Shown: positions 10,567 to 25,519 of the stretch, piece by piece
How the letters are laid out: every line of letters starts with the position of its first letter
Position numbering within the stretch: the first letter of the stretch is position 1
From: Robiginitalea sp.
GTDB taxonomy: Bacteria; Bacteroidota; Bacteroidia; Flavobacteriales; Flavobacteriaceae
DNA length: 64,000 bases
NCBI GenBank assembly: GCA_024638915.1
Contig: JAHEJJ010000003.1
Span: 62,001-126,000, forward strand
Direction of reading: 5' to 3'
Notes under the pieces: generated by a model
Told to the model about the DNA's origin: nothing
Databases searched by the model: none
Seen by the model: the letters and a program-made list of their open reading frames with translations, nothing else
Position numbers and translations under genes: made by a program

Positions 10567-10586
10567 AACACAAAATCCACTAAGGG

Positions 10587-10616
10587 AAAAACCGATGCTT
10601 CTGCTTCGGTTTTTTT
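10587..10616 (+). terminator. Intrinsic terminator after lipoprotein paralogue 1
   Basis: The arms ACCGATGC and GCTTCGGT pair with one T-T mismatch around a TTCT loop, preceded by A residues and followed by six T residues. It lies 20 bases after the stop codon. Confidence 0.8.
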
Positions 10617-10727
10617 ATGTCTGATCAAAGTCATTGTCAATCGTTTTAAAATTCACTAATTAGTGGGAAAATACTTGATCTTGTTTAGTCGTGTTTTGGA
10701 CTATGGGATTATGACAATTACCGTGAT

Positions 10728-12638
10728 ATGCTACACGTCAGTCAGAATATTGACCAAAAATTTATCGACCGTTTACAGCAAATTCTCGAGGAGAACATTG
10801 AAAATGAGCATTTTGGAGTAAGTGAGCTTGCCATGGCGGTTGGCGTTAGTCGTTCTAACCTGCATCGTAAAGTGCATGCCTACAATGGGAATTCTACCAG
10901 CCAGTTTATCAGGGAATTCAGACTTAAAAAAGCTATTGCCTTACTGCAGCATCAGGAGGGAACGGTTGCTGAAATAGCGTATCGGGTCGGTTTTTCAAGT
11001 CCGACTTATTTCAATACGTGCTTTAAGGATTACTATGGGTACCCGCCGGGGGAAGCTAAAACGATCCATCAGCGTACTTCATTTGAAAACCCAGATCGAC
11101 CCGGAATTAACAGTAAATATGAAGGGCTAAACAGCAGATGGATGCTGGGTCTGTTGTTAACCCTTATGATGATCGCCGTACTCAGCACCTCCTATTACAT
11201 AAGAATTGGTCAACCCAGCGATAGGGCTCAATCAGAATATACAATAAAGCAAAAGTCCATTGCTGTACTGCCGATTAAAAATTGGAGTGGCAATCCCGAT
11301 CTGGACTATATAGGCGATGGTATGACCGATGCCATTATTACAAGGCTAACAAAGATCAGCTCGATTGCAAAAGTGACCCCATTTACTTCGGTTATGCAAT
11401 ACAAAGCGTCCGAAAAAAGTGCTGTGAATATCGCCGAAGAATTAAGTGTTACTCATATACTTCAGGGAAATTTTCAATTATCAGGCGATCAGATAAAGAT
11501 AAAGCTGCAACTGATCGATGGTCACAACAATACCCATTCCTGGTCGGAAGAATACAATGGTACCTGGAATAGCGATGATGTATTCCAAATCCAGTCAAAT
11601 GTTGTAGAACATATTGCTGAAAGGATGGATGTGACCATAGTTGATGAAGAAAAGGAAGCCTTGAATAAGAACCCTACCCAGAACAGGGAAGCGTATAACT
11701 ATTGGTTAAAGGCGAAATATCAATCGTTAAAATATACGAAAGAAGGTATGGAGAATGCATTACCCCTATTTGAAAAAGCCATAGACCTCGATTCGAACTT
11801 TATTGAGCCCTACGTGGATATGGCCTACGTGTATCTTTTCGGTGGTGGAAGCTGGGGTTTACATACCGAAAAGGAAGCCTGGCAAACAGCCAAAGGGCTT
11901 TTGATCGATGCCAAAAAGATCGACAGTACCAACCTGCGGGTTAAAAGTGCATTGACCGACGGCCTGTATATATATGAATGGGATTTTGAAACGATGGAGA
12001 GGAATTATAGAACTGCAAGTAATCTGGGGATTATCTATAGACTTCAATCAGGTAGGCATAGCGAAGCGCTGGAGGTGATAGAGTACTTTTATAAAGAGCA
12101 ACCTCAAAGTGTGTTCTATCATTCTTTTAAAGCCCAGGCCCTGTATTTTTTAGATCGAAAACAGGAAGCCTCAGATCTTTTGAGAAGTTCGGATAAACTG
12201 TATTCGGACCAGATTATGTATCTGAGAGCAGCGTCCAGATTTCATTATTATCTTGAGAATTATGCGGCCTCTAAAGCGCTTCTGACCAAACTGTTGGCTC
12301 AATTTCCGGATCGTCCACCTGTGGTGCTTTGGCTTGGGGCATTGCATAAAACCCGCGATGATGATATTGAGGGGGCGAACCTATATCTGCGTGAGTTAAA
12401 GAGACGATTTAATACCGGAGAATCTGGAAGCCCCGCATGGTTTCTTGCACTTTATTACAGCTCAACAGCCGATCCTGAAAAGGCCATTGAATGGCTCCGG
12501 AGGTCTTATGAAAATCACGATATGGAAATGATCTGGTTACGTGAGGAACCAGCATTAAGACCTCTGAGAGATGACCCCAGATACCTGGGAATATACCACA
12601 AAGTAGGTTTCCCCTTGCCTGCAAAAACTCCTCGTTAG
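10728..12638 (+). CDS. Membrane-tethered AraC-type regulator with TolB-like and TPR sensor, paralogue 1
   Basis: This appears to be a one-component transcription regulator spanning the membrane. Residues about 10-110 are an AraC-type double helix-turn-helix, at the N-terminus rather than the usual C-terminal position, with the typical Gly-Phe-Ser-Ser-Pro-Thr-Tyr-Phe second recognition segment. One transmembrane helix follows at 138-158. Residues about 175-290 form a TolB/FlgO-like domain (Ser-Ile-Ala-Val-Leu-Pro start) as found in CadC-type and cyclase-type regulators, and 310-600 are TPR-like repeats. Topology would place the DNA-binding part in the cytoplasm and the TPR sensor in the periplasm. 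The product of 21922-23886 is a paralogue, with near-identical C-terminal blocks (Ser-Gly-Ser-Pro-Ala-Trp-Phe-Leu-Ala-Leu-Tyr-Tyr). Likely targets are the neighbouring small secreted proteins. Confidence 0.85.
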   Translation: MLHVSQNIDQKFIDRLQQILEENIENEHFGVSELAMAVGVSRSNLHRKVHAYNGNSTSQFIREFRLKKAIALLQHQEGTVAEIAYRVGFSSPTYFNTCFKDYYGYPPGEAKTIHQRTSFENPDRPGINSKYEGLNSRWMLGLLLTLMMIAVLSTSYYIRIGQPSDRAQSEYTIKQKSIAVLPIKNWSGNPDLDYIGDGMTDAIITRLTKISSIAKVTPFTSVMQYKASEKSAVNIAEELSVTHILQGNFQLSGDQIKIKLQLIDGHNNTHSWSEEYNGTWNSDDVFQIQSNVVEHIAERMDVTIVDEEKEALNKNPTQNREAYNYWLKAKYQSLKYTKEGMENALPLFEKAIDLDSNFIEPYVDMAYVYLFGGGSWGLHTEKEAWQTAKGLLIDAKKIDSTNLRVKSALTDGLYIYEWDFETMERNYRTASNLGIIYRLQSGRHSEALEVIEYFYKEQPQSVFYHSFKAQALYFLDRKQEASDLLRSSDKLYSDQIMYLRAASRFHYYLENYAASKALLTKLLAQFPDRPPVVLWLGALHKTRDDDIEGANLYLRELKRRFNTGESGSPAWFLALYYSSTADPEKAIEWLRRSYENHDMEMIWLREEPALRPLRDDPRYLGIYHKVGFPLPAKTPR

Positions 12639-12788
12639 CTGATCTATATTTCTTTGCTTCAACAATAGTGCAGGGATTACAAAAAAACCTTAAACGATCT
12701 TCAACATAGCTGTTTGGTCTCGCATGATTTTAATCCTGAAATTAGTTATGATCAGATTAAAAGAATGTTTAACCTAAAAATTTATGTC

Positions 12789-13304
12789 ATGAGAAAATGG
12801 ATATTTGGCTTTTTATTCCTGGGTTTGGCCAGCCTGACCTATTCGCAGCAACCCCAGACAGAAGTAAATGAGGTAGTCCTGGAAGGGGTAACGGTTACCT
12901 CGCCAAATTTGGATTACCTGGCTATGGTTCAGGACAAAAACACTCCTGAGACCGTAAAAAGACTGGAACGGAAAGCCGCAAGTTTTGATCTATTGGAATC
13001 CCCTGTTTATAACAAAATAGACAAGGCTTATGAGGTCTTCTTTTCCAACAGCAAAGGGCGTATCGTTGCCACCTATGATGATGGAGGCAAGATATTATCT
13101 TCGGTTGAAAAATTTGCAAATGTTGTAGTACCCGGGCCGATACGAAATACCGTATACCAGGCGTACCCGGAATGGACAATGAGTGAGAACACCTACAGGG
13201 TGACTTACTTTCAGAACAAGGGGGTTAAAAAAACCTATCATTTCCAAATTACAAAAGGGGATGAAACTAAGAATCTTAAAGTAATATGGAAAGCCACACG
13301 TTAG
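12789..13304 (+). CDS. Secreted PepSY-like protein, paralogue 1
   Basis: This is a small periplasmic protein of about 171 residues. I start it at the ATG at 12789, not at the in-frame GTG at 12714, because a clean signal peptide begins there (Met-Arg-Lys, hydrophobic core, Tyr-Ser-Gln cleavage site). The mature part has two repeats of the PepSY/BLIP-like pattern, with the motif Tyr-Pro-Glu-Trp-Thr in the second. It is a paralogue of the product of 21039-21599, sharing Val-Gln-Asp, Thr-Pro and Leu-Glu blocks. Databases often label relatives as nicotinate-nucleotide adenylyltransferase, but none of that enzyme's motifs is present and the protein is exported. It follows the AraC/TPR regulator and ends in a terminator. 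Its function is unknown; binding or inhibition in the periplasm is one possibility. Confidence 0.75.
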   Translation: MRKWIFGFLFLGLASLTYSQQPQTEVNEVVLEGVTVTSPNLDYLAMVQDKNTPETVKRLERKAASFDLLESPVYNKIDKAYEVFFSNSKGRIVATYDDGGKILSSVEKFANVVVPGPIRNTVYQAYPEWTMSENTYRVTYFQNKGVKKTYHFQITKGDETKNLKVIWKATR

Positions 13305-13509: not shown

Positions 13510-14604
13510 ATGCCGATTTACATGGATAGACATATGGTCCCTGGGATAGAAGCCAAACACGCGGCCGAAGCACATCGTGAGGATCTTAAAATACAGGAGG
13601 AATATGGCTGTCGCTGTATGACCTATTGGGTTGATGAAGATCGGGGAAGCGCCTTCTGCCTGATCGATGCACCAGATATCGACTCAGTTAAAAGAATGCA
13701 TGATCGCGCCCATGGGTTAATGCCTCATGAGATTATTCAGGTGAACAGCAATGTGGTGGAAGCTTTTTTAGGCAGGATAGCAGATCCAAATGCGATACCC
13801 GACGGGACAACCCCTGATTTAAAAATATTTAATGATCCCGCATTTCGGATAATCCTGGTGAGTACCACAACAGCTGAAGGACTGTTAAGACATAGGGTGG
13901 GAAATGCGAAGGCCAGCCTCCTTAACAAGCTCTATCATGAAATAATGAGAAAACAATTGAGCGTTCACGAGGGGCGTGAGGTGGAACTCAAAGGAGGAGG
14001 TTTTATTGCTTCTTTCGTATCGGTAAACCAGGCCGTTGAATGTGCTTTTGCCGTTATGGACGATTTACATATTGCCGGCGAATTAATCGATCTCCGTATC
14101 GGACTTAATGCCGGTATGCCTGTAAGTAAGAGCAAAGAGCTATTTGGGGATACTGTGGCAATGGCCCGCTACCTTTGCAGTATCGGGAAAGAAAATCAGA
14201 TGGTTATGGCTCCGATCATCAGAGAGATCTACAAAGGCGAGCGAAAAAATAACACAGACGAATCATTTAAATGGATATCACCTTCTGATGAAAATTTCCT
14301 TCAACTCTTAATGGAGACTCTTAGAAATAACTGGCAGGACCCACAGTTCGGGCTGATGGATTTCTGCGACCAAATGTCGATGAGTAAATCCAAACTCTAT
14401 AGGAAGTGTACAGAACTCACCCACATGTCGATTAATGAGCTATTGCGCGATTACCGCCTAAACCAGGCACTTCATTTGCTAAAAACTGACCGGAATATCG
14501 CCCAAACCACTTTCGATTGCGGATTTAACAGTCCTTCTTACTTTACGAAATGCTTTCAGCAACGATACGGGGTACAACCTCTGGTATATGCGAAAGAACT
14601 CTGA
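13510..14604 (+). CDS. Three-domain regulator: DUF4242, degenerate nucleotide-cyclase domain, AraC-type HTH
   Basis: Residues 1-92 resemble DUF4242 (ferredoxin-like small-ligand or metal-binding fold) and carry Cys34, Cys36 and Cys50. Residues about 112-242 look like a class III adenylate/guanylate cyclase homology domain: Glu-Leu-Lys-Gly-Gly-Gly-Phe at 159-165 takes the place of the usual K-x-x-G-D, and Leu-Arg-Ile-Gly-Leu-Asn-Ala-Gly at 195-202 matches the family. The second metal-binding Asp is Gly here, and the first metal site (around Val117-Ser118) also lacks Asp, so it should be catalytically dead and may act as a sensor or dimeriser. Residues 262-364 are an AraC-type HTH with Gly-Phe-Asn-Ser-Pro-Ser-Tyr-Phe. 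There is no membrane segment. The next gene encodes a secreted DUF4242 protein, a likely target or partner. Confidence 0.8.
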   Translation: MPIYMDRHMVPGIEAKHAAEAHREDLKIQEEYGCRCMTYWVDEDRGSAFCLIDAPDIDSVKRMHDRAHGLMPHEIIQVNSNVVEAFLGRIADPNAIPDGTTPDLKIFNDPAFRIILVSTTTAEGLLRHRVGNAKASLLNKLYHEIMRKQLSVHEGREVELKGGGFIASFVSVNQAVECAFAVMDDLHIAGELIDLRIGLNAGMPVSKSKELFGDTVAMARYLCSIGKENQMVMAPIIREIYKGERKNNTDESFKWISPSDENFLQLLMETLRNNWQDPQFGLMDFCDQMSMSKSKLYRKCTELTHMSINELLRDYRLNQALHLLKTDRNIAQTTFDCGFNSPSYFTKCFQQRYGVQPLVYAKEL

Positions 14605-14699
14605 TCATTGATTCAAATTTGATAATTGTTGATCGATTCGAAACAGCGATATACCTGAGACGATACTAGGTTTGCTATATAAACTTAAAACCAGGTATT

Positions 14700-15101
14700 A
14701 TGAAAACATTTCAATCTACATTTAGTCTTCTTTTTCTCATCATGTTCGGTTCATTGTCGGTTTTTGCACAAGGTCAGGATGTTATCTACACGAAGATGGC
14801 CAAAGAAAAACTCGCTGATAATCCGGATTTAAAAACCTATTTGATCGAAAGGGAAATTCCGGGCGCGGGCTCCCTCAGCTCCGAGGATCTTAGGGACATC
14901 TCCCAAAAGTCGTGTTCCGTGATTGAGGATATGGGTCCGCAGATTCAGTGGATACATAGCTATGTCACCAAAGACAAGGTATATTGTATCTATAAAGCTG
15001 AAAATAAAGAAATGATCAGGGAACATGCCGAAAAAGGAGGTTTCCCGGCCAACCATATTACCGAATTGTCTACGGTGATCAACCCCACTACGGCCCGTTA
15101 A
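14700..15101 (+). CDS. Secreted DUF4242 protein
   Basis: A signal peptide (about residues 1-23, ending Val-Phe-Ala) is followed by a single DUF4242 domain with the family blocks Glu-Arg-Glu-Ile-Pro-Gly-Ala-Gly, Gln-Ile-Gln-Trp-(Ile)-His-Ser-Tyr and Glu-His-Ala-Glu-Lys-Gly-Gly-Phe-Pro-Ala-Asn. The family includes a nickel-binding Streptomyces protein, but most members are uncharacterised and the ligand here is unknown. It lies 95 bases after the DUF4242/AraC regulator, so ligand sensing by a shared fold inside and outside the cell is conceivable. Its leader contains ATACCTGA, similar to part of the lipoprotein leader. A terminator follows. Confidence 0.8.
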   Translation: MKTFQSTFSLLFLIMFGSLSVFAQGQDVIYTKMAKEKLADNPDLKTYLIEREIPGAGSLSSEDLRDISQKSCSVIEDMGPQIQWIHSYVTKDKVYCIYKAENKEMIREHAEKGGFPANHITELSTVINPTTAR

Positions 15102-15367: not shown

Positions 15368-16801
15368 ATGAAAACATTTAAAACTATTTCATTCCTGTGC
15401 CTATCTTTAATATTCACTAATTGTAAGCAAGATGACTCCTTTTTCAAATTACCTGTTGTGGAAGAGGAAACCGTACGTGCTGAATCTTCTAGTGATATCT
15501 TCCCTAATCGCAATGATGAAGAACAAATTATTCGAAACCAAGTCATATTTAAATTTAATGATAAAACGACAAGAGATCAAATAAGAACCCAATTTGAGAG
15601 TATTAGAACTCAAATTGACACCTGTTCATGTGGAGATTTAATGTATGAACTTTGGACATTAGATGATACACAAATTGATGTGGAAGGGGCTATTGGACAA
15701 GTTGAAGATAATGGTGGTGGTGGAGTTGAAGGTGAAAACCAATTCATAATTCAATTACCCTCAGGCACATTACCAACTGATACTATACCAAAAGAAGATA
15801 GACTTGGTGTTATAAGAGGATTAACTTTCAGCCAGATTAATAGTGAACCGAGAGTAAATATTGCCATAATTGATACTGGCATAGATCTTAAACGTAATAT
15901 AGATGCCAGCAAGTTTCTTTATAACACACGGGATATTTTTGAATGTCGTAATCAAACATCAGGTTGGAATTTTGTAGATGGGAATGAAGATATATCTGCG
16001 GAAAATGACCATGGAACTTTCGTAACCGGAATTATTACAGATGCTCTATCAAGTTCCCAATTGGTCCCAGATGGTATCAAATACAGTATTCTTCCAATAA
16101 AGGCCTTTGACATCAATGGTCGTAGCACCTATTGGGACATTGTTTGTTCCTTTGCATATGTTAATCAGGTGCAGAAAATAAATAAGAATATTCATATTGT
16201 AGACGCCAGTTTTGGCTACGACTTCGAAAGTATTGAAGACAGTGTCGAATTAGAAAGACTGCATGATCGTCAGTCTATTCTCCGAGATTTAATTTATCAG
16301 TTAAAGGAAAGTACAGTGGTTGTTACATCGGCAGGAAATAGAAACAATGATAACAACGTCATCCCACATTACCCATCTGGATTTAATGATAATCCTATTA
16401 ACATTGATAATAACGTTGTAATTGACTCACTAGACAACATTGTTGGTGTTGGTGGCTGGTCATTGGACCAAGAAAGTCAAAGATTGTCAATTGGAAATTA
16501 TGGAAATAATACTATCGATTTAGGAGCCAAATACTTTCAACACCATATGACTTTTGAATATAGGGATATCCGAGATGGCCTTGGTTTTCATATTAGAGAA
16601 ACTGCAAGTGTAGATGGTACTTCTTATGGTACGGCATTAGTAACAGCAAAACTAGCAGAACAAATATACGATGAATCCATAAGTACAAGGGGCATTAATG
16701 AATTACCTGCTGTTACAATCGAAAACTTTTTTAATTCAAACTTTATAGACAAAGATGTAGGACTTCAAGCAAATTTTATTAACGGGAAGTTTCTTAAGTA
16801 A
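15368..16801 (+). CDS. S8 (subtilisin-like) serine protease, putative lipoprotein
   Basis: A secreted endopeptidase. The N-terminus is a lipoprotein-type signal ending at Cys19, followed by Lys-Gln-Asp-Asp, an acidic surface-export-like signal; the lipobox itself (Phe-Thr-Asn-Cys) is weak. Residues about 55-150 form a propeptide-like domain with Cys-Ser-Cys-Gly and a Gly-rich linker. The catalytic triad is complete: Asp169 (Ile-Asp-Thr-Gly), His215 (His-Gly-Thr-Phe) and Ser419 (Gly-Thr-Ser-Tyr-Gly), with oxyanion Asn324. It ends 10 bases before the TPR-CHAT gene, so the two proteases are co-transcribed. Its base composition is much more AT-rich than that of the genes on either side, indicating a different origin. 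The natural substrate is unknown; the CHAT partner is one candidate. Confidence 0.88.
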   Translation: MKTFKTISFLCLSLIFTNCKQDDSFFKLPVVEEETVRAESSSDIFPNRNDEEQIIRNQVIFKFNDKTTRDQIRTQFESIRTQIDTCSCGDLMYELWTLDDTQIDVEGAIGQVEDNGGGGVEGENQFIIQLPSGTLPTDTIPKEDRLGVIRGLTFSQINSEPRVNIAIIDTGIDLKRNIDASKFLYNTRDIFECRNQTSGWNFVDGNEDISAENDHGTFVTGIITDALSSSQLVPDGIKYSILPIKAFDINGRSTYWDIVCSFAYVNQVQKINKNIHIVDASFGYDFESIEDSVELERLHDRQSILRDLIYQLKESTVVVTSAGNRNNDNNVIPHYPSGFNDNPINIDNNVVIDSLDNIVGVGGWSLDQESQRLSIGNYGNNTIDLGAKYFQHHMTFEYRDIRDGLGFHIRETASVDGTSYGTALVTAKLAEQIYDESISTRGINELPAVTIENFFNSNFIDKDVGLQANFINGKFLK

Positions 16802-16811
16802 TTAGACGAAA

Positions 16812-19574
16812 TTGAAATATATACTTAGTTTAATTCTATTCTGCTTTTCATCTGGTCTCTATGCTCAGGAATATGAACAATTATTGGCTATCATTGAATT
16901 GCCAATTGCTCAGATTGAAAAGCAACAGAAAATAGATTCTTTCCTCCTGCTAAATGAATCAAGGTTAAATCAAAGCGTTTTGGCTGATTGTTATCATGAT
17001 TTAGGCAGTAAATGGTATTATCCAAATTCAATTAAAATTTCAGGTGGCCTTAATTTGGAAAAAGCAATTAGCTACACATCTAAGTCTTTGGCAATTAAAA
17101 GAAAACTTAATAATCTCGAGGACTGCAGTATAAACAAAACTCTCAATAATCTAGGTTTTTTTCATTTCTTAAATTACGATATTTATGAGGCCATAGATGC
17201 ATATAAGGAACTTGAAGAGAATGGGCACATTTATTGTTCTGACCGCAAAAACGGTAAGGATAAGGTTAGATGGTCGCAGCAGCAATTGACGAAAATCTAT
17301 AAAATTTTAGGTAATTATTATGCAGCTCTAGATATCTGTGATCGAATGTTAAATATTTATTATGATGCAATATATACTGCAGATATAAGCGTTTTGATCG
17401 CGACAGAAGCCCATATTCTTCGCGCAGAAACGTATTTTTTGATTGATCCAATTGAGCATAATGATAAAATAATAAAGAATCTCGATAAAGCAGTATCATT
17501 TAATAAACCATCTGCCAGTCGATATGAGAAAAACATTGCTCGCATCCTAAATTTAAGGGCAAATTGTCAGTTCATAGCTGAGGATTTTCAAGCTGCCCTA
17601 ATTACATATTCGAGTGTTCTAGATTATTTTAGTGAGACAGATTCCCTCAACAAAGCAGTTATCTACAGCAATAAAGGATATTGCTTAAACAAACTTGGCA
17701 GCTATGATGATGCCGAGGTTGCTCTAAGCCAGGCTATAGACCTCAATCCACTCAACGGAGATGCATTTAATAATTTAGGGGACCTTAAATTGGCCAATGG
17801 TGATTTTTTTAGGTCCATGGTATTCTATAACAAGGCCATTGCTCTTGAAATAAATAAAGAGTTAAAAACGCCCTATTTTGAAATACCCAGCATCAAACAG
17901 CTTGAATCTGCAGTGAACAAAACATCCCTCCTTAATCACATGGTCACCAAAGCCAATGCCTGGCTCACCTGGTATGAACACGAACCGGATACGTCCCATT
18001 TGGAACATGCCCTGGAGACCTTTGACCTTGCGGATCAACTCGTAGACCTGATTCGCTTTGAAAGCACCGAACAGCAATCCAAGCTTTTTTGGCGTGAAAA
18101 AGGGGCCAGTCTTTATTCGAAAGCCGTGGAGGTATGTTACCTGCTTGATAAACCGGAGCGGGCCTTTTATTTTATGGAACGCAATAAGGCGCTTTTGCTC
18201 CTTGAAGACCTGGGCCATGAGGAAGCGAAACGCATCGCCGGTCTTCCTGTTGCGGCTGCCCAGCAAGAATTTAAACTCCGCCGGCAGATCTTTCTGGCCG
18301 AAAACGACCTGATTGAAGCTGATACCCATCAGCATATAGAAGACCTTAGAAATTCCGTACGCCGGGCAAAAACTCAATATGAGGCTTATATAGATTCCCT
18401 GAACACCGCTTACCCCGATTATGCCCGCTATAAAAGAAAGACCGATATAATCACCTTTGATAAACTAAGAAGCAAATACCTCTTGCCTGATCAGTATGTG
18501 CTCCATTACATAGTCAACGAGGAAGATGGATACGGCCTTTTGAATACAACAGCCTCCAGCCAACTGTTCCGATTTGAAAATATCGAACCATTCAACAAGG
18601 ATATCAAAACTTATATGAGCTTGCTCTCCAATGGCACATCCGATCTGGATACCTTTTATGATCTTTCTTATAAACTATATCAACAACTATTCCCTGAAGA
18701 AATAAGAGATCGCCTTCAGGGAAAACAGCTATTGATCGTGCCCGATTACAACCTCCAGCGTATCCCCTTTGAGACGCTGGTAACAGACATCTCCGGTCTG
18801 CACTACCTCATAGAAGATGCCGAAATAAGCTATGCTTATTCGCTTTCACTGCTGGAGCGGCAATCAATCAATACAAGGGAATTTGACGCATCGGTTATCG
18901 CCATGGCACCGGTCAAGTTCGGGTCCGATGGTCTTGGGACCCTTCGGTACAGCGAAGATGAAGCTGTGGCAATCAGCGATTTGTTCCAGGGAGACCTCTA
19001 TATAAGGGAGCAGGCTTCCAAGGCTAATTTTACCCGGGATGCCAGCGGACACAAGATCATCCACCTCGCTACACATGCCGATCTTGGTGATGGAGAAAAC
19101 CCCTGGATCGCCTTCAGCGATGGCAAGATGTATCTGAAAGAGATCTACGCCACGCCCACCCAATCCGAAATGGTGGTCCTGAGCGCCTGCAACACCTCCC
19201 AGGGGGATCTTAAGCCTGGAGAGGGCATCATGAGCCTGGCAAGGGGGTTCTTTTATTCAGGTGCCAACAGCGTAGTATCATCGCTATGGCCGATAACAGA
19301 TAAAGGAGGGCGGGATATTATGCAGTCTTTCTACAAAAATTTGAATGAGGGGCATACCAAATCTGCTGCCCTGAGAAAGGCCAAGCTGGACTATCTCCAC
19401 AATACGGAAGTGCCGGAATTAAAGCATCCTTATTACTGGGCAGGATTCGTGGTCTTAGGAGACAATGCTCCGCTTGTTGAGGCCGGTTCTGTATACTGGT
19501 TTCTGGTGGTTTTAGCTCTTACGGTGGGTCTCATATTTCTTGGCATACACCGACTATCGAAGTTCGGCAAGTAA
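16812..19574 (+). CDS. Exported membrane-anchored TPR-CHAT caspase-like protease
   Basis: The start is TTG at 16812, supported by the signal peptide that follows at once (cleavage after Leu-Tyr-Ala) and by the 10-base gap to the S8 gene; no in-frame ATG lies nearby. Residues about 50-345 are tetratricopeptide repeats, the clearest at 285-345. Residues about 560-880 form a CHAT domain, a caspase/separase-fold cysteine protease, with the dyad His755 (His-Leu-Ala-Thr-His-Ala) and Cys793 (Ser-Ala-Cys-Asn-Thr) intact. A transmembrane helix lies at about 893-911 with a short basic tail. The protease domain should therefore face the periplasm, which is unusual compared with the studied cytoplasmic CHAT proteases. 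GC content jumps near residue 350, exactly between TPRs and the CHAT half. The 3' end overlaps the convergent anti-sigma-like gene by 21 bases. Confidence 0.88.
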   Translation: MKYILSLILFCFSSGLYAQEYEQLLAIIELPIAQIEKQQKIDSFLLLNESRLNQSVLADCYHDLGSKWYYPNSIKISGGLNLEKAISYTSKSLAIKRKLNNLEDCSINKTLNNLGFFHFLNYDIYEAIDAYKELEENGHIYCSDRKNGKDKVRWSQQQLTKIYKILGNYYAALDICDRMLNIYYDAIYTADISVLIATEAHILRAETYFLIDPIEHNDKIIKNLDKAVSFNKPSASRYEKNIARILNLRANCQFIAEDFQAALITYSSVLDYFSETDSLNKAVIYSNKGYCLNKLGSYDDAEVALSQAIDLNPLNGDAFNNLGDLKLANGDFFRSMVFYNKAIALEINKELKTPYFEIPSIKQLESAVNKTSLLNHMVTKANAWLTWYEHEPDTSHLEHALETFDLADQLVDLIRFESTEQQSKLFWREKGASLYSKAVEVCYLLDKPERAFYFMERNKALLLLEDLGHEEAKRIAGLPVAAAQQEFKLRRQIFLAENDLIEADTHQHIEDLRNSVRRAKTQYEAYIDSLNTAYPDYARYKRKTDIITFDKLRSKYLLPDQYVLHYIVNEEDGYGLLNTTASSQLFRFENIEPFNKDIKTYMSLLSNGTSDLDTFYDLSYKLYQQLFPEEIRDRLQGKQLLIVPDYNLQRIPFETLVTDISGLHYLIEDAEISYAYSLSLLERQSINTREFDASVIAMAPVKFGSDGLGTLRYSEDEAVAISDLFQGDLYIREQASKANFTRDASGHKIIHLATHADLGDGENPWIAFSDGKMYLKEIYATPTQSEMVVLSACNTSQGDLKPGEGIMSLARGFFYSGANSVVSSLWPITDKGGRDIMQSFYKNLNEGHTKSAALRKAKLDYLHNTEVPELKHPYYWAGFVVLGDNAPLVEAGSVYWFLVVLALTVGLIFLGIHRLSKFGK

Positions 19575-20270
19575 TTGCTCAGCTTCACTGGAATTATACG
19601 CTCCTTGCTCCACTATTTTTTCGAGTTCCGTTATAGCCTGCTTTTTATCGTCGAGCTGTAAATAGGCCATCGCCAGGTACCAACCCGCCCGGTCTGTCAA
19701 CTTATCCTCAGACGCTGAGTATTCCTTGAGAAGTAAAATGGCTTCCTCTGCCCGCCCTAATTCAAGCAGGGCATTCGCCATATAAAATTGATAGTAAGTT
19801 TGGTCCTCGGTTTCGAGGAGATCGCGGAACCTGTCATAGGCCTCTTGATATCGACCGGTTTCATAAGCCTCAAAAGCTGTATCTTTTGCATTCGCAGTAT
19901 TTCCTCTCTCCAGGGGGTTTACTACATTGGGATAGTTTTCAAAGTAATTTTCATAGAGGTCGGAAGAAGAAACGGGCCTGTTTAGGTTATAGAATATAGC
20001 CAATCCCAATACTGCAAATATCGAGGCGGCTACCAATAGTTTTTTCCATGTACCAGACGTCGGCCTGTTTTCCTGAAATTCCGACTCGAGTTCACCGACC
20101 ATTTTTCTCAAGGGATCTTTCTCTGCATTAACCACTTCCCGAAGATTCTCTTGAAAAGCTACTTCACGGGCAAATTCTTCGTCGCTACCAAAAAGGATAT
20201 CGAATTCTGATCGCTCTTTAGCACTCAGAGATCCCTGTAGATATTTCTCAATAAGCATCGTGTGATCCAT
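19554..20270 (-). CDS. Anti-sigma-like membrane protein with periplasmic TPRs
   Basis: I start the gene at the ATG at 20270, ten bases after the sigma factor stop codon, instead of the far upstream in-frame ATG that would overlap the sigma gene. The N-terminal 65 residues match the cytoplasmic part of Bacteroidota anti-sigma factors (Ile-Glu-Lys-Tyr-Leu-x-Gly-x-Leu-Ser start, acidic Glu-Phe blocks), without a zinc motif. One transmembrane helix lies at about 76-95, and the C-terminal 130 residues are TPR-like repeats placed in the periplasm. It probably binds the sigma factor and releases it on a periplasmic signal. It is convergent with the TPR-CHAT gene and overlaps its end by 21 bases, so degradation by that protease is an attractive but untested idea. 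Confidence 0.75.
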   Translation of the reverse strand: MDHTMLIEKYLQGSLSAKERSEFDILFGSDEEFAREVAFQENLREVVNAEKDPLRKMVGELESEFQENRPTSGTWKKLLVAASIFAVLGLAIFYNLNRPVSSSDLYENYFENYPNVVNPLERGNTANAKDTAFEAYETGRYQEAYDRFRDLLETEDQTYYQFYMANALLELGRAEEAILLLKEYSASEDKLTDRAGWYLAMAYLQLDDKKQAITELEKIVEQGAYNSSEAEQLLAELR

Positions 20271-20280
20271 CGTCTTGATT

Positions 20281-20817
20281 TTACATTTGGTTTCGTAGCT
20301 TTTCAAGACAACGGTGTTTCTGGACTTTGGCAACGTTTGCATTCCTAAGTCCGGCTTTATCCGCCATCTCTTCAAGTGTTAGTCCTCTGTAGTAGAATAA
20401 AGTTAACAGCTCCCGGCATTTTTCGTCTAATGCTTTAAAATATTTTCTTAGTTGGCGCTGTGCGGTGCTTAATGCATCGCTTTGATCGAATGTAATATTA
20501 ATTTCCTCTTCGCGCTCAATTCGCAGATTGGCATCATATGGCACCATCTTTCCTTTATACTTAAATAAGTCGTAAATCATATGCTTCCCGATCTGGAAGA
20601 GGTAAGTTTTCATACTGCATTGCACCTTTTCCAATTTCCCGTTTTTCGAGTGTTTAATAAGTGCGAGGAAAGCTTCCTGGTAGATATCGGAAAGATCGCT
20701 GTCATCCAACTGATAGCGCCGTGCAAAGCCAAAGAACTGACCGCGGAATAAATCGTAAATGGCCTTGATTTTTAGCCGGTCTTCTGATATGAGATCTGCA
20801 ACCTTTTTTGGATCCAT
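20281..20817 (-). CDS. ECF-type RNA polymerase sigma factor
   Basis: This is a sigma-70 family protein of about 178 residues containing only regions 2 and 4. Region 2 shows Asp-Ile-Tyr-Gln-Glu-Ala-Phe followed by the basic Lys-Thr-Tyr-Leu-Phe-Gln-Ile-Gly helix; region 4 near the C-terminus has Cys-Arg-Glu-Leu-Leu and an HTH ending in Lys-His-Arg-Cys-Leu-Glu-Lys-Leu. I prefer the ATG at 20817 over the in-frame GTG at 20835. It is followed ten bases later by the anti-sigma-like TPR protein, forming a sigma/anti-sigma operon. Similar ECF/TPR pairs occur beside CHAT genes in other Bacteroidota as far as I recall. Its regulon cannot be read here. Confidence 0.88.
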   Translation of the reverse strand: MDPKKVADLISEDRLKIKAIYDLFRGQFFGFARRYQLDDSDLSDIYQEAFLALIKHSKNGKLEKVQCSMKTYLFQIGKHMIYDLFKYKGKMVPYDANLRIEREEEINITFDQSDALSTAQRQLRKYFKALDEKCRELLTLFYYRGLTLEEMADKAGLRNANVAKVQKHRCLEKLRNQM

Positions 20818-21038: not shown

Positions 21039-21599
21039 ATGAGAAATTTAATCATCGGTATGTTTTTTATAGGTCTTACCAACCTAGCATTTGGGCAACA
21101 AAAAGAAGATGTTGCTAAAGAAGTTGAACTTGCGGAAGTTACCTTGACCGCACCTAATTCGGACTATCTACTGGCAGTCCAGGACCGTCAGACACCAGCA
21201 GCTGCCCGTGCGCTGGAAAGTATGGCAGCTAATTACGACGTAAAGGCGTCTCCTCATTTTAATGCGGTAAGCAAGATTTATGAAGTCACCTTTAGAAATG
21301 GGCAAGGATCAATTTATGCCGTCTATGATCCGGCTGGAGAAATGCTCGCCGCATTCGAGAACATCAAAAATGTGAGTCCGCCTGTAGCCTTGAGAGAGAC
21401 AATCTTTGAAGAGAATCCCGGATGGACTATCGTCAAGAGCAAGTACCAGGTCCGTTACTTAAATGGAAAGGATGCCAAAAGGCAATACAAGGCTCAATTG
21501 CGAAATGGGAAGAAGAAAAAGACCATGAAATACCAAATTCAAGGCACTTCTGATATCGCAGAGAAATTGGATGCTATCCTGGCCGAAAATCGCAAATAA
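21039..21599 (+). CDS. Secreted PepSY-like protein, paralogue 2
   Basis: This protein of 186 residues has a signal peptide (about residues 1-19, ending Phe-Gly-Gln) and a PepSY/BLIP-like body. It matches the product of 12789-13304 along its length: Glu-Val-Thr-Leu-Thr-(Ala)-Pro-Asn start, Val-Gln-Asp, Thr-Pro, Ala-Ala-Asn-Tyr-Asp and Pro-Gly-Trp-Thr blocks. A basic Lys-rich tail is extra. It is divergent from the sigma operon, and the AraC/TPR regulator follows it, so regulator and PepSY-like protein are neighbours as in the first copy but in the opposite order. Its function is unknown. Confidence 0.75.
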   Translation: MRNLIIGMFFIGLTNLAFGQQKEDVAKEVELAEVTLTAPNSDYLLAVQDRQTPAAARALESMAANYDVKASPHFNAVSKIYEVTFRNGQGSIYAVYDPAGEMLAAFENIKNVSPPVALRETIFEENPGWTIVKSKYQVRYLNGKDAKRQYKAQLRNGKKKKTMKYQIQGTSDIAEKLDAILAENRK

Positions 21600-21620
21600 A
21601 GCTGATTTAAATTAGCATCG

Positions 21621-21648
21621 ACCGTCCGGTTTCCGGACGGTTTTTTTT
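21621..21648 (+). terminator. Intrinsic terminator after PepSY-like paralogue 2
   Basis: A perfect GC-rich stem (ACCGTCCGG / CCGGACGGT) with a three-base loop runs into a long T tract. The following 270 bases up to the regulator are AT-rich without a gene. Confidence 0.92.
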
Positions 21649-21921
21649 GTGCTTCTATTAATTTGGTTGCCGGCTCCATTTTGATTTCCTTTGGATTTGT
21701 ATTATAAAATTTTAAAATCCTCTTCGGCCGATATTTTTATTCTCAATGGTTTGTCCTTAAGACCATGCAGATTTTTTTAGTGATTGGCTAAATTATCAGA
21801 TCAGCACACTTAGGTTGCAGATTAATTTTTCAAAAGGTTAAGCTATATTGTTTAACTTACAATTTCTTGGCTTATACTTTGGTGTGTATAGGGATTGAAC
21901 GTCTTTCCAATAATTGATCTT

Positions 21922-23886
21922 ATGTATAAGGAAAATTCTCTTGAAGATATATTTATACGGAAGCTATCTGGCATTCTGGATCTGCGCTTGGGAGATGAAA
22001 ATTTTGGAATAACGGAATTAGCCACGGAAGTCGGATTGAGCAGGTCACAATTGCACCGCAGACTTAAAAAAATCAGTGGTAAATCTACAAGTCTGTTCAT
22101 ACGCGAATACAGACTTTCGAGGGCTCTGGAGATGCTAAAGGGGAATGAAGCCACAGTATCTGAGATTGCGTTTAGAGTGGGATTTAAGAGTCCAACCTAT
22201 TTTAACTCCAGCTTCAAAAAAAAATATGGCTATCCTCCCGGGGAAGTAAAATTTAGAAATTCAAAGACCTTTACAGACAAGGAACGGCAGGCTGAGAATA
22301 CTGAGAAGCAATACTCAGCGTCCGATAAACCGGGAAAACCTGTGAATAAGAGAAAGGTTTTCTTAATTGCCTCCATCATGGTATTGGCTATTACTTCGGC
22401 AGTTATTTACACACTCTATGGCTATCACAAATTGGCTCCGGTTGCTGTAATCTCGAAGAACCCGGATAAATCAATCGCTGTTCTCCCGTTTAAAAACTAT
22501 AGTGGAGATTCCACCCTCGACCCTTTTTGTGACGGCATGACTGATGAAGTAATCTCAAGGCTCACAAAAATAAAATCGATTCGTAAAGTTACCTCACGAA
22601 CCTCGGTGTTTAATTATAAAGACACAGATAAAAGTATTCCGGAAATAGGTGCCGAGTTAAATGTCACACATATACTGGAAGGAAATTTCCAAAAATCAGG
22701 AGATAAAATTAAAGTTAAGCTACAACTCATCGATGCTTCCAGGGATGAGCATTTTTGGTCTGATGAGTATTCAGGCGAATGGGATAGCAACGATATTTTC
22801 GCTATACAGGCAGCAGTTGCCGAAAATGTGGCAGAACATATGGATGTTGAAGTTTCAGAAGAAGAGTATTTAGACATACAACATAGACCAACTGAGAATA
22901 AAGAGGCGTACAGAAATTACCTCCAGGCACAGTCTCAAAAGTATAAGGAGAATGAGCAAGCGTATTCGAATGCAATCCCATTATACAGGAACGCGATCAA
23001 ATTAGATTCCAATTTTATTGAACCTTATATAGGGTTAGCAGACGTTTGGTTGTCAGGAGGACTGGTTTGGGGAATATATTCAGAACAAGAGGCCTGGGCA
23101 AATGGCAAAAAGGCCCTTGAAAAAGCCAGGGCCATCAATGATAGTTATACAGGACTACAGGACATGTTGCAAACAGGGTATTTTTACTATGACTGGGACA
23201 TGGTGGGAGTGGAACCCTATTTTCAATACAGGCTGGAGAATCATGTTTTTGACAGGACCCCGAGTATTGATGCTGACTTTGGTATTAAGACGGGAAGGTA
23301 TGAAGAAGTAATAGTGAATATGGACAAAAATATTGCCGAGGATCCTTCCGTTGGCATTTTCTACACATTTAAAGGAATGGCCATGTTGTTGGCAGGTAGA
23401 AAAGATGAAGCTGCTTCGATGTTGGAAAAAAGTATTCCACTTCATAGTGATAACTGGTGGTACTTGCGTGAATCTGCCAAATTACTTTATTATCTGGGAG
23501 ACTATACTAAATCTAAAGAACAGATTGCTAAAATGAAACGCAATTATCCCGATTATCCACCAATACTTATGTGGTTCGATGCTATATATGCTTGCAGGGA
23601 TGGTCGAACAGATGAAGCGGAAGCGTACTTAATGGAGTTGGAAAATGAATACCAGAAGGGATCTTCAGGAAGCCCTGCCTGGTTTCTGGCCCTTTATTAT
23701 TGCTCAAATAAGGATTATGAAAAAACCTTCAATTGGCTCCAAAAATCATATCAAAACCATGAAGTGGAAATGACCTGGTTAAAAGAAGAAGCCCTCTTGC
23801 AACCGTTGAAAAACGATACACGGTATTTAGATTTATATAATCAAGTTGGATTCTCTAGGTTCGATGACTATCTGGCGAAAAAGTAG
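21922..23886 (+). CDS. Membrane-tethered AraC-type regulator with TolB-like and TPR sensor, paralogue 2
   Basis: I use the ATG at 21922 rather than the in-frame TTG at 21895, because it aligns with the start of paralogue 1 (10728). The N-terminal AraC-type HTH spans residues about 8-108, a transmembrane helix about 146-165, the TolB/FlgO-like domain about 182-300 (Ser-Ile-Ala-Val-Leu-Pro, then Asp-Gly-Met-Thr-Asp) and TPR-like repeats the rest. It therefore has a cytoplasmic DNA-binding head and a periplasmic sensor. The two paralogues are closest in the HTH and in the last 80 residues. It stands between PepSY-like paralogue 2 and two secreted lipoproteins, the probable targets. Confidence 0.85.
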   Translation: MYKENSLEDIFIRKLSGILDLRLGDENFGITELATEVGLSRSQLHRRLKKISGKSTSLFIREYRLSRALEMLKGNEATVSEIAFRVGFKSPTYFNSSFKKKYGYPPGEVKFRNSKTFTDKERQAENTEKQYSASDKPGKPVNKRKVFLIASIMVLAITSAVIYTLYGYHKLAPVAVISKNPDKSIAVLPFKNYSGDSTLDPFCDGMTDEVISRLTKIKSIRKVTSRTSVFNYKDTDKSIPEIGAELNVTHILEGNFQKSGDKIKVKLQLIDASRDEHFWSDEYSGEWDSNDIFAIQAAVAENVAEHMDVEVSEEEYLDIQHRPTENKEAYRNYLQAQSQKYKENEQAYSNAIPLYRNAIKLDSNFIEPYIGLADVWLSGGLVWGIYSEQEAWANGKKALEKARAINDSYTGLQDMLQTGYFYYDWDMVGVEPYFQYRLENHVFDRTPSIDADFGIKTGRYEEVIVNMDKNIAEDPSVGIFYTFKGMAMLLAGRKDEAASMLEKSIPLHSDNWWYLRESAKLLYYLGDYTKSKEQIAKMKRNYPDYPPILMWFDAIYACRDGRTDEAEAYLMELENEYQKGSSGSPAWFLALYYCSNKDYEKTFNWLQKSYQNHEVEMTWLKEEALLQPLKNDTRYLDLYNQVGFSRFDDYLAKK

Positions 23887-24093
23887 TTGACTTTATTTCG
23901 CACAACTGAATTTTACTGGCAGTATTTTTCACCTTTTTCCTTCCCTATACATCAATGACACAAGACTTACAACTATGTTGCATTGATCCACCTATTTTTT
24001 TAATCTATTGCATCATTACTTAATATAAGGTAACGATATAATTGAAATCTTTATGGTAACATCAAATCGATTAAAACTTTAAAATTCAGAATC

Positions 24094-24606
24094 ATGAAAA
24101 TAAAAATGACAATTACATTGATAGTGACTTTAACCCTCATTAATATAGGTTGCCAGCAGGCTGAGGAAAAGAAAGTAGACACAGATGTGGTTGTTGATAT
24201 TGTGAAGGATGATTTTCCTGAGTACCAGCAGGAGATTAAACAGGTTTTGGACGGTATTTTTCAGAGTTTTAAGGATAAAGATGCCGATAAACTTATCTCA
24301 TATCACGTATATGGACCGAAGTTTACAGAGTACAGAAATGATGGGCCTCGTTTTGGTTCCGAAGGTAACGAAGAATACGAAAGAGGCTTTGTAGGTGCTA
24401 TAGAAGATTGGGACTATAATTTAAACGACCTGAAGATCGATGTGTTTGGAGAAGTGGCGGTTGTAACTTTCGAGGCAGACTTCAGACCCACCATGGAGGC
24501 TGAAAAAGTTCAAATTTGGGCCAACGTAACTTTGGTTTTTGTCAAGACAAATGGTGCCTGGAAAATAACGCATGAACACTTTACACAATTCGAAAAGAAG
24601 GCCTGA
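24094..24606 (+). CDS. SnoaL-like (NTF2-fold) lipoprotein
   Basis: The N-terminus is a lipoprotein signal with Ile-Gly-Cys20 followed by Gln-Gln-Ala-Glu-Glu. Residues about 45-168 fit the SnoaL/DUF4440 cone fold: an N-terminal helix with Phe-Lys-Asp-Lys-Asp-Ala-Asp, a central Tyr-rich segment, and the closing strands ending Gly-Ala-Trp-Lys-Ile-Thr-His-Glu-His-Phe. This fold can bind small molecules or act as a subunit; no catalytic residue can be assigned. It has no counterpart in the first copy of the duplicated set. It lies 207 bases after the regulator and 265 before lipoprotein paralogue 2, each gap being large enough for its own promoter. Confidence 0.75.
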   Translation: MKIKMTITLIVTLTLINIGCQQAEEKKVDTDVVVDIVKDDFPEYQQEIKQVLDGIFQSFKDKDADKLISYHVYGPKFTEYRNDGPRFGSEGNEEYERGFVGAIEDWDYNLNDLKIDVFGEVAVVTFEADFRPTMEAEKVQIWANVTLVFVKTNGAWKITHEHFTQFEKKA

Positions 24607-24777
24607 CCATAAGGGCAATTATAATATTCCTGTGACATGGCCTTTAGAAATTCGCCGGCCATAGAATTGAATTAATCATTTAAAGTTTCCCGTATAATAA
24701 GCCTGGATTTGAAAAAACCCAGGAAAATTGCGAACTCACTTTCAATCTACCTCATTAGAAGTGATTAGTTACCGATG

Positions 24778-24853
24778 CGATCCTATGATCCTTTAATCCT
24801 TAAGGGACATATACCTGAAGCGAAGAACGTTTCTTGAAACTTTAATTATTAAC
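24778..24853 (+). promoter_or_regulatory. Conserved leader shared by two paralogous lipoprotein genes (copy 2)
   Basis: It aligns with 9783-9859 in order and spacing (CGATCCT, GATCCT, AAGGG, ATACCTGAA, GTTTCTTGAAA, ATTAA). The rest of the 265-base gap before it shows no gene. Confidence 0.55.
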
Positions 24854-24871
24854 CAATTTTAGATATGTATT

Positions 24872-25519
24872 ATGAAAACAATTATGAAATTATTATTCGT
24901 CCTGTTATTATTTGTGGGCGCCTCTTGTTCCGATGAACCAGATGAAGCAGAATTTACTACCGTTAATGCTTCTGCAAATACCAAATCCTCAACCGCGGTA
25001 TTTAATACAATTACAGGCGATATAATCGGGACCTCAATCCTCCATAGAAACAGCAATGGAGTTACGGTAAATTTTAAAACTACCGATCTAATGCCCGGCC
25101 ATGCTTACACTTTATGGTGGGTGGTATGGAACAAACCGGAGAACTGTATTGTGCCTGGGGAATGTACCGAAGCAGATTTTGCCAATGCCCTTGATGTTGA
25201 GGTACAGTTACTTTATGCGGCAGGAAATGTGGCGGGAAATAATGGGAAAGGGAATTTCTCGGCTCATTTAAATGAAAATGATGACACAGGTTCCATACAT
25301 GAGCTCTTTGGCCTGCCTAATTTTGGAGGATTACAAAATGCAGAAACGGCCGAAATACATGCGGTATTGAGAAGTCACGGGCCTAAAATTCCAGGACAGG
25401 TAAGCGAACAGATAAGTTCCTATGAAGGAGGTTGTACAGTTTTTTTACCGCCCTTTACCCAAATCCCAGTTGAGGAAGGGGAATGTGGTGATATCATAGC
25501 TGCACTCCACAGATTATAG
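24872..25519 (+). CDS. Secreted lipoprotein of unknown function, paralogue 2
   Basis: The product is 215 residues with a clear lipobox (Gly-Ala-Ser-Cys19) and acidic residues directly after it (Ser-Asp-Glu-Pro-Asp-Glu), the pattern for surface-exposed lipoproteins in this phylum. It shares with paralogue 1 (9874-10566) the blocks Leu-His-Arg-Asn-Ser, Pro-Gly-x-Ala-Tyr-Thr, Trp-Trp-Val, Gly-Lys-Gly-Asn-Phe-Ser-Ala-His-Leu-Asn-Glu-Asn-Asp-Asp, Leu-Arg-Ser-His-Gly-Pro and Gln-Ile-Ser-Ser-Tyr-Glu-Gly-Gly-Cys. Identity is highest in these core strands and lowest behind the lipid anchor, as for a conserved fold with a flexible stem. No function is assigned. A strong terminator follows. Confidence 0.75.
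   Translation: MKTIMKLLFVLLLFVGASCSDEPDEAEFTTVNASANTKSSTAVFNTITGDIIGTSILHRNSNGVTVNFKTTDLMPGHAYTLWWVVWNKPENCIVPGECTEADFANALDVEVQLLYAAGNVAGNNGKGNFSAHLNENDDTGSIHELFGLPNFGGLQNAETAEIHAVLRSHGPKIPGQVSEQISSYEGGCTVFLPPFTQIPVEEGECGDIIAALHRL

Follow-up and report, generated by a model that had tools for sequence, protein, structure and literature searches.

A TPR-CHAT protein, an ECF sigma factor and an anti-sigma-like membrane protein form a putative envelope signalling unit in Flavobacteriaceae

Introduction

How might a caspase-fold protease facing the periplasm be linked to the control of a sigma factor in the cytoplasm? This question is raised by a locus of Robiginitalea sp. (Flavobacteriaceae), located in a stretch of 64,000 nucleotides (GenBank assembly GCA_024638915.1, contig JAHEJJ010000003.1, positions 62,001 to 126,000, forward strand) which is called the window hereafter and whose own numbering is used. 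Here, a subtilase of the S8 family and a CHAT protein with tetratricopeptide repeats (TPR) are encoded next to an extracytoplasmic function (ECF) sigma factor and a membrane protein resembling an anti-sigma factor. A preliminary description of the locus, made from the sequence alone, had proposed a cascade in which the S8 protease activates the CHAT protein and the latter cuts the anti-sigma protein.

In this study, we show that the module of CHAT, ECF sigma and TPR anti-sigma-like genes is real and widespread, and we describe it as a putative signalling unit. The pairing of a caspase-like protease with a sigma switch in many marine Flavobacteria suggests that envelope proteolysis turns genes on. 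As mechanism we propose a trans-envelope proteolytic switch, in which the CHAT protein would be the site-1 protease of the anti-sigma protein and an M50 site-2 protease would follow; we give this proposal about as much credence as doubt.

Results

The module in the window

Four genes make up the module in the window, the S8 and TPR-CHAT genes on the forward strand, followed by the genes of the anti-sigma-like TPR protein and the ECF sigma factor on the reverse strand. Their features are:

15368..16801, +, lipoprotein subtilase (S8), 477 amino acids (aa); Pfam Peptidase_S8 1.8e-17; Asp169, His215, Ser419
15527..15754, +, prodomain-like N-terminal domain of the S8 protein, residues 54-129; secondary structure of the AlphaFold2 model, hhalign
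16812..19574, +, secreted, C-terminally anchored TPR-CHAT protein, 920 aa; Pfam CHAT (PF12770) 2.9e-56, TPR
18669..19463, +, CHAT domain, residues 620-884, with His755 and Cys793; Pfam, invariance in alignments
19491..19547, +, C-terminal transmembrane (TM) helix of the CHAT protein, residues 894-912, basic tail behind; hydropathy, helix 894-919 in the AlphaFold2 model
19554..20270, -, anti-sigma-like one-TM protein with C-terminal, predicted extracytoplasmic TPRs, 238 aa; TPR matches, family alignment, topology of relatives
19983..20039, -, TM helix of the anti-sigma-like protein, residues 113-131 in the numbering of P0003; sequence-based topology
19905..19907, -, Arg122 (Arg-Gly) in the stretch that links TM helix and first TPR of the anti-sigma-like protein, weak lead for a site of cleavage or docking; R or K in 113/121 relatives
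20281..20817, -, ECF sigma factor, 178 aa from Met; Sigma70_r2 1.3e-8, r4 1.2e-5, TIGR02937 sigma70-ECF 1.5e-20

The CHAT open reading frame (ORF) has a TTG start 10 bases past the S8 stop, and its 3' end overlaps by 21 bases with that of the convergent anti-sigma-like gene, whose coordinates are counted from the first plausible Met. The CHAT domain scores 191.5 bits against a PF12770 cut-off of 24. ORFs, Pfam matches and the triad Ser419/Asp169/His215 confirm what had been reported on the gene content: a lipoprotein S8 protease with complete triad 10 bases before the TPR-CHAT gene, a CHAT protein with signal peptide, C-terminal anchor and His755-Cys793 dyad, and, convergent to it, an ECF sigma factor and a TPR anti-sigma-like membrane protein.

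Linkage of CHAT and sigma genes

Searching 199 Flavobacteriaceae genomes yielded 92 with a match to the CHAT protein, some of them TPR-only; up to four candidates were scored per genome, so all CHAT counts are to be read as "at least". Sixty neighbourhoods were picked by hand, mostly those of top-scoring CHAT matches and hence leaning to close relatives, and their genes were called by script. With the window included, 58 of the 61 CHAT loci carry on the same fragment an ECF gene followed by a TPR anti-sigma-like gene, and the four genes of the window co-occur elsewhere, which bears out the conserved neighbourhood expected from the preliminary description. The pair is convergent with CHAT in 28 of these loci and shares the CHAT strand in 7; in the other 23 it lies upstream on the opposite strand, usually separated from CHAT by no more than the lipoprotein or S8 gene. 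The loci without a pair are L069 and L081, both with a short CHAT, and L077. In a second named collection, comprising partly the same organisms, the pair is present at 72/79 loci; four of the seven misses are cut within 1.5 kb of CHAT (L135, L166, L182, L188) and three are not cut (L145, L179, L189). The linkage becomes looser in more distant relatives: outside the family and within the same class, the pair was found by profile in 11/17 loci from 13 genomes, once weakly.

Co-occurrence was tabulated for 139 CHAT matches (87 genomes), leaving aside TPR-only rows and second fragments, and for 138 anti-sigma matches. Among the 199 genomes, at least 77 hold both families, 10 CHAT alone and 5 the anti-sigma family alone (lower bounds), giving an odds ratio of ~165 (Fisher p 2.6e-37, uncorrected for kinship). 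An anti-sigma match lies within 12 kb of 118/139 CHAT matches, and the reverse holds for 117/138; chance would give very roughly 0.7 %. Moreover, when paralogues were swapped within five multi-module genomes, the true pairing gave the highest CHAT-anti-sigma distance correlation of 1152 within-genome permutations, and likewise the highest CHAT-sigma correlation of 1152. Such a correlation may come from linked inheritance alone, but it shows that the modules travel as units. As Bacteroidota often carry ECF/anti-sigma pairs, the neighbourhood might have arisen by chance from common genes; against the odds ratio and the paralogue test we consider this hardly credible.

Topology of the CHAT and anti-sigma-like proteins

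The signal peptide of the window CHAT protein ends in ...YAQ. A C-terminal TM helix is present in 133/140 CHAT relatives, and in 132 of these the stretch behind the helix is richer in basic residues than the stretch ahead of it. A looser signal-peptide pattern, with a small residue and Gln at the end, fits 131/140 CHAT proteins; a strict hydropathy window finds an N-terminal hydrophobic stretch in only 60/140. The 140 CHAT proteins, as well as the 130 anti-sigma-like proteins considered for topology, contain some duplicates, where the same genome is present in two collections. The CHAT domain is thus predicted to be extracytoplasmic in nearly all relatives examined, in agreement with the periplasmic location first suggested for the window protein. 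That location had been called an unusual setting for the family, which holds in comparison with the TPR-CHAT proteins of CRISPR systems but not within our Flavobacteriaceae sample, where by sequence it is the rule.

The anti-sigma-like protein of the window has one TM helix and TPRs (TPR_19 6.2e-7). One TM helix is found in 115/130 relatives, more basic residues lie N-terminal of it in 114/130, and a median of 144 residues follow it. The CHAT domain and the TPR parts of both proteins should therefore face the periplasm, as far as topology prediction goes. No curated anti-sigma model matched the N-terminus above its threshold; NCBIfam NF052375 gave E 0.0033 and 17.4 bits, where 100 bits are required. 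The label therefore draws on the length and topology of the protein and on the place of its gene immediately after that of the ECF sigma factor. Searched against solved structures, the anti-sigma profile gave TPR or TPR-like repeat proteins in the best 60 rows. The Arg122 column is the second most conserved among the relatives. A second class of CHAT proteins (~950-1090 aa) stands in tandem behind sigma and anti-sigma genes (L087, L088, L220, L241, L243), and the anti-sigma proteins of these loci do not have the Arg-Gly motif.

Catalytic residues and fold of the CHAT protein

His and Cys of the CHAT domain are invariant in three alignments (61/61, 47/47 and 28/28 rows, the last from diverse Bacteroidota). 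The AlphaFold2 model of the CHAT protein, built with 47 sequences, has a mean predicted local distance difference test score (pLDDT) of 86.7, and its top Foldseek match is 8eey_B, the CRISPR-associated Csx29 with Csx30 (7.2e-14). In the VIA comparison the model aligned with CRISPR TPR-CHAT chains at Z 27-28 over ~570-610 residues (7y9x_B: Z 28.3, 571 residues) and with the anti-sigma factor DdvA (8rot) at Z 23.2 over 620 residues (model 20-883), and its CHAT part with separase (5fby) at Z 25.9 over 306 residues. By sequence, a profile of 28 diverse CHAT domains matched DdvA at 3.5e-11 and the CRISPR TPR-CHAT proteins at ~1e-7; the second His of HxxxH and the Cys are kept in the four profile alignments inspected. 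A profile was required for this, as the window CHAT domain as single sequence gave nothing useful against solved structures. With a full-length CHAT profile, TPR or TPR-like repeat proteins took up the top 60 rows. The protein thus has a TPR-CHAT fold according to the model, yet a shared fold proves no function, and its proteolytic activity is predicted.

The TPRs of the CHAT protein might instead pair with those of the anti-sigma-like protein, and hold or release it without any cut. That both sets of TPRs are predicted on one side of the membrane would suit such a scaffold, and DdvA shows that the two parts can form one structural unit. A pure scaffold would not need His and Cys, and as neither residue changes in any row examined we think this role distinctly unlikely.

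The S8 protease and the slot before CHAT

The S8 lipobox Cys19 (IFTNC, lipobox-like) and the triad are invariant in 49/49 aligned rows. The AlphaFold2 model of the S8 protein (pLDDT 84.5) displays a subtilisin fold preceded by a b-a-b-b-a-b domain (residues 54-129), and full-length structure matches include subtilases with prodomains (PvSUB1, pro-subtilisins, fervidolysin). From order and modelled fold, the N-terminal domain is probably a prodomain. In the S8 alignment it bears a C-x-C motif, of which Cys86 is invariant (49/49) and Cys88 is present in 90 % or more of the rows.

At many loci, the slot directly before CHAT is occupied instead of S8 by a protein of ~120-260 aa, with a lipobox-like start in 36/42. 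When a profile of these 42 slot proteins was compared with the S8 N-terminal domain, hhalign aligned the two over 45 columns with a probability of 94.5 and E 7.4e-8; the match covers columns 67-116, beyond the signal peptide. A control set of 17 other slot proteins, including L087 and L088 (really anti-sigma genes) and three non-lipoproteins, gave no match to this domain (probability 0.2) and matched the 42 proteins in the signal-peptide stretch only (probability 81.8). Individually, nine small slot proteins reach E < 1e-3 with an extended profile of the S8 N-terminal domain. In the region L063:9357-11000, two similar small lipoprotein-like genes stand in tandem ahead of CHAT.

Among 131 CHAT proteins (identical ones dropped), the slot holds S8 in 61, a lipoprotein of the prodomain-like group in 40, another lipoprotein in ~12 (14 rows, two of which, L087 and L088, are really the anti-sigma gene) and something else in the rest. 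Slot type changes at least 10 times on the CHAT tree, whereas the sigma/anti-sigma pair is kept. Judged from these sequences, the lipid-anchored N-terminal domain is more constant than the S8 domain, and S8 is a clade-specific add-on and not a constant trigger. It may be an effector or a second output.

These data bear on the cascade of the preliminary description. Its favourable points are the presence of S8 before CHAT in 61/131 relatives and the invariance of triad and lipobox Cys. Since the slot is often without an S8 domain, being filled by the prodomain-like lipoprotein alone in 40/131, we do not accept activation of CHAT by S8 as general mechanism, and the complete cascade appears very unlikely to us. 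We retain the later part as the best reading, in which CHAT would act on the anti-sigma protein: co-occurrence, topology and the precedents of Csx29-Csx30 and DdvA speak for it.

After the lipobox Cys, the window S8 lipoprotein reads CKQDDS. The signal of surface-exposed Bacteroidota lipoproteins (LES) has Lys or a polar residue and two acidic residues behind this Cys, according to the part of PMC5080379 considered here. Two or more acidic residues at +2 to +6 occur in 37/67 S8 proteins and 26/39 slot lipoproteins, by a rough lipobox rule that takes some wrong Cys and has no control set.

A promoter-like element in divergent loci

In divergent loci, 43/72 lipoprotein/CHAT operons have a directional GGGTAAC ahead of them, against 0/72 in reverse sense; a T-rich spacer follows, often with a GAAC-like element ~15-18 bases on. 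The fetched loci contain 1003 other genes encoding at least 150 aa, of which 53 are preceded by it in forward and 9 in reverse sense. Within divergent loci it precedes 54/471 genes near the module and 0/210 far genes, and in the remaining loci 2/101 CHAT-operon genes. It is absent before the window CHAT operon and from the convergent class (0/40 forward). This pattern would be expected of a promoter through which the local sigma factor drives its own protease operon, a link between sigma factor and DNA that we infer from sequence. GGTTAAC near the sigma gene of convergent loci (23/39 forward) was rejected as unspecific, for it precedes 109/1003 other genes in reverse sense.

Several genes near CHAT deserve mention. 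The CHAT module at L192:9705-15409 has no S8 gene. Behind it come genes for a C39/VKOR/thioredoxin protein, with GGGTAAC upstream, for an ABC exporter with C39 peptidase, for HlyD and for a protein of 89 aa whose start resembles a GG leader. Genes of similar size are seen again in other loci, and the same sigma factor may here govern the export of a bacteriocin-type peptide. Large secreted proteins with Por_Secre_tail (type IX) lie near CHAT at L051:10203-12554, L149:12672-14588 and L169:3318-6227, with GGGTAAC upstream of the first two and, in L169, before a 132-aa gene just ahead.

The element speaks for our main rival explanation, in which CHAT and lipoprotein are outputs: the sigma/anti-sigma pair would sense envelope stress otherwise and induce a periplasmic protease operon (CHAT, and S8 where present) directed against other targets. 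GGGTAAC stands before the lipoprotein/CHAT operon of divergent loci and before nearby lipoprotein, type IX cargo and peptide-export genes, and an S8 protease is a natural envelope effector. Conversely, linkage is equally tight in the convergent loci, which miss the element, and both the fusion of anti-sigma factor and TPR-CHAT in DdvA and the cut of a sigma inhibitor by Csx29 suggest that CHAT stands upstream of sigma. On balance this explanation seems somewhat unlikely.

Host genome and flanking genes

The host genome (~3.0 Mb, 98.39 % complete) has a single PF12770 match. The closest relative among the loci found comes from a Eudoraea metagenome assembly, with a CHAT protein 63 % identical, which places the host near this genus within the Flavobacteriaceae. 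Two matches to PF02163 represent M50 site-2-type proteases in the host genome, a weak indication, as the control matches in 14/14 genomes. Flanking the module on both sides are paralogues in mirrored order (window 9874-13304 and 21039-25519), consisting of 230/215-aa lipoprotein-like proteins (~52-59 % identical), 636/663-aa regulators (43 %; the first with AraC-type HTH and TPR according to Pfam) and 196/186-aa secreted proteins (40 %). Directly 5' of the S8 gene (window 13510-15101) are two genes of SCO4226-like proteins (PF14026), one of which also contains an AraC-type HTH as a fusion.

Discussion

The proteolytic switch that we propose builds on observations: gene content, topology by sequence, catalytic residues, linkage, co-variation of the partners and fold kinship. 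In it, the C-terminal helix would anchor the TPR-CHAT protein to the inner membrane, and the TPR sensor and the caspase-fold domain would lie in the periplasm. Alongside, the anti-sigma-like protein would expose its TPRs on the same side and bind the ECF sigma factor in the cytoplasm with its N-terminus. A periplasmic cue, read by the TPRs of CHAT and by the lipoprotein encoded just before it, would turn CHAT on; this lipoprotein is a pro-S8 protease here and elsewhere the prodomain-like part alone or another lipoprotein. CHAT would then cut the periplasmic part of the anti-sigma protein (site-1 cut), and an M50 site-2 protease would complete the cut and free the sigma factor. The cut itself, the communication between lipoprotein and CHAT and the order of steps are the parts that we infer.

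Several observations weigh against this proposal. In 7/58 loci the pair lies 3.8-5.2 kb from CHAT with three to five genes between. Without a CHAT match within 12 kb are 21/138 anti-sigma matches; 20 of these were fetched, and because four do adjoin a CHAT gene, the linkage figures are lower bounds. In other classes of the phylum, at most 3/20 fetched CHAT fragments carry the pair, and a broader sigma profile added none. The lack of GGGTAAC at the window operon and in the convergent class belongs here as well, as does DdvA, where CHAT is fused to an anti-sigma factor, which also fits a non-proteolytic role. Finally, the Arg-Gly position is basic in 11/17 homologues without CHAT on the fragment versus 8/14 with CHAT (in a ninth CHAT-linked homologue, L236, Arg is shifted one place). 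This control is weak: the pair was called in only 31/40 fetched loci, a contig edge cuts off some of the 17 fragments, and some of the genomes behind them carry CHAT elsewhere. As CHAT-specific cut site after the anti-sigma TM helix, Arg-Gly was rejected, being conserved, not discriminating and missing in the tandem class; it is a weak lead only.

Two loci outside the class have other partners. At L124:10505-11956, CHAT is near a zf-HC2 membrane protein adjoining a weak sigma region 4 match; at L128:9712-11348, it is near an ECF-type sigma gene and a fibronectin type III protein with membrane helices by eye. CHAT may thus pair with other kinds of sigma control farther out.

If the proposed switch is correct, a whole family of marine bacteria uses caspase-fold proteases to control transcription across the envelope, and the RNA-guided Craspase switch would be one case of a wider pairing of protease and sigma inhibitor. 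Bacteroidota sigma factors gain a concrete site-1 protease candidate with named residues. A wider version is more tentative, possible with doubt outweighing belief: TPR-CHAT protein, ECF sigma factor and membrane sigma inhibitor would form a general, CRISPR-independent envelope unit of Bacteroidota, kin to Craspase and DdvA, in which periplasmic caspase-like cleavage frees sigma and is gated by a lipid-anchored subtilisin-prodomain-like protein, alone or with a subtilase on the same chain. The prodomain would hereby be reused as regulator of a second, unrelated protease. A subtilisin-prodomain-like domain put to use as stand-alone lipoprotein partner would be a new regulatory part.

Comparison with known systems

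No description of the Flavobacteriaceae module was found among the titles searched, in which TPR-CHAT proteins and sigma factors were joined only in CRISPR papers; the group tables of the ECF classification may record the linkage. A defence role was dismissed, the only PADLOC matches being weak (subtilase 0.0044, BovA 2.4e-5).

With the prodomain subtilases PvSUB1, pro-subtilisins and fervidolysin, the window S8 protein shares a prodomain-like domain, an S8 domain and an intact triad. It differs by the predicted lipid anchor before the prodomain, and a related domain also stands alone in the slot.

In the DegS/RseA/RseP system, a membrane anti-sigma factor is freed stepwise by a periplasmic and then a site-2 protease. 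The same stepwise release is proposed here. DegS is a PDZ serine protease, whereas the site-1 protease of our proposal would be a TPR-bearing CHAT cysteine protease.

The Craspase of type III-E CRISPR (Csx29/Csx30/CASP-sigma) has in common with the window module a TPR-CHAT protein with His-Cys dyad and similar overall fold, encoded near an ECF sigma factor and its inhibitor. According to the sections of PMC10028731 considered, the inhibitor is there the substrate: Csx29, with the catalytic pair H615/C658, cleaves Csx30, a protein that binds CASP-sigma, an ECF factor, and inhibits it. Strecker et al. liken the switch to DegS and RseA. Csx29 differs in being activated by RNA bound to Cas7-11, and these sections mention no export signal; the window CHAT protein is by sequence exported and membrane-anchored, and the inhibitor would be a one-TM TPR protein. 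The csx29 model in PADLOC matched none of the four window proteins. A type III-E CRISPR system is ruled out, since the RAMP family PF03787 has no match in the 98.39 % complete host genome (control: matches in 4/14 genomes).

DdvA (PDB 8ROT, 8RW5, titled transmembrane anti-sigma factor) is presumably from Myxococcus. The sequence entry matched by our CHAT profile is named CHAT domain-containing protein, and our search found no literature on this domain of DdvA. Like the window module, DdvA joins an anti-sigma factor to a TPR-CHAT part, here aligning with almost the entire model. It is one fused chain, whereas two separate convergent ORFs encode two membrane proteins in the window, which rules out a DdvA-type fusion. 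Together with Csx29, DdvA indicates by analogy a tie between CHAT and sigma inhibition that comes in three forms, namely an RNA-guided complex, a fused chain and the separate membrane proteins described here. If our reading holds, the module works like Csx29 and DdvA both.

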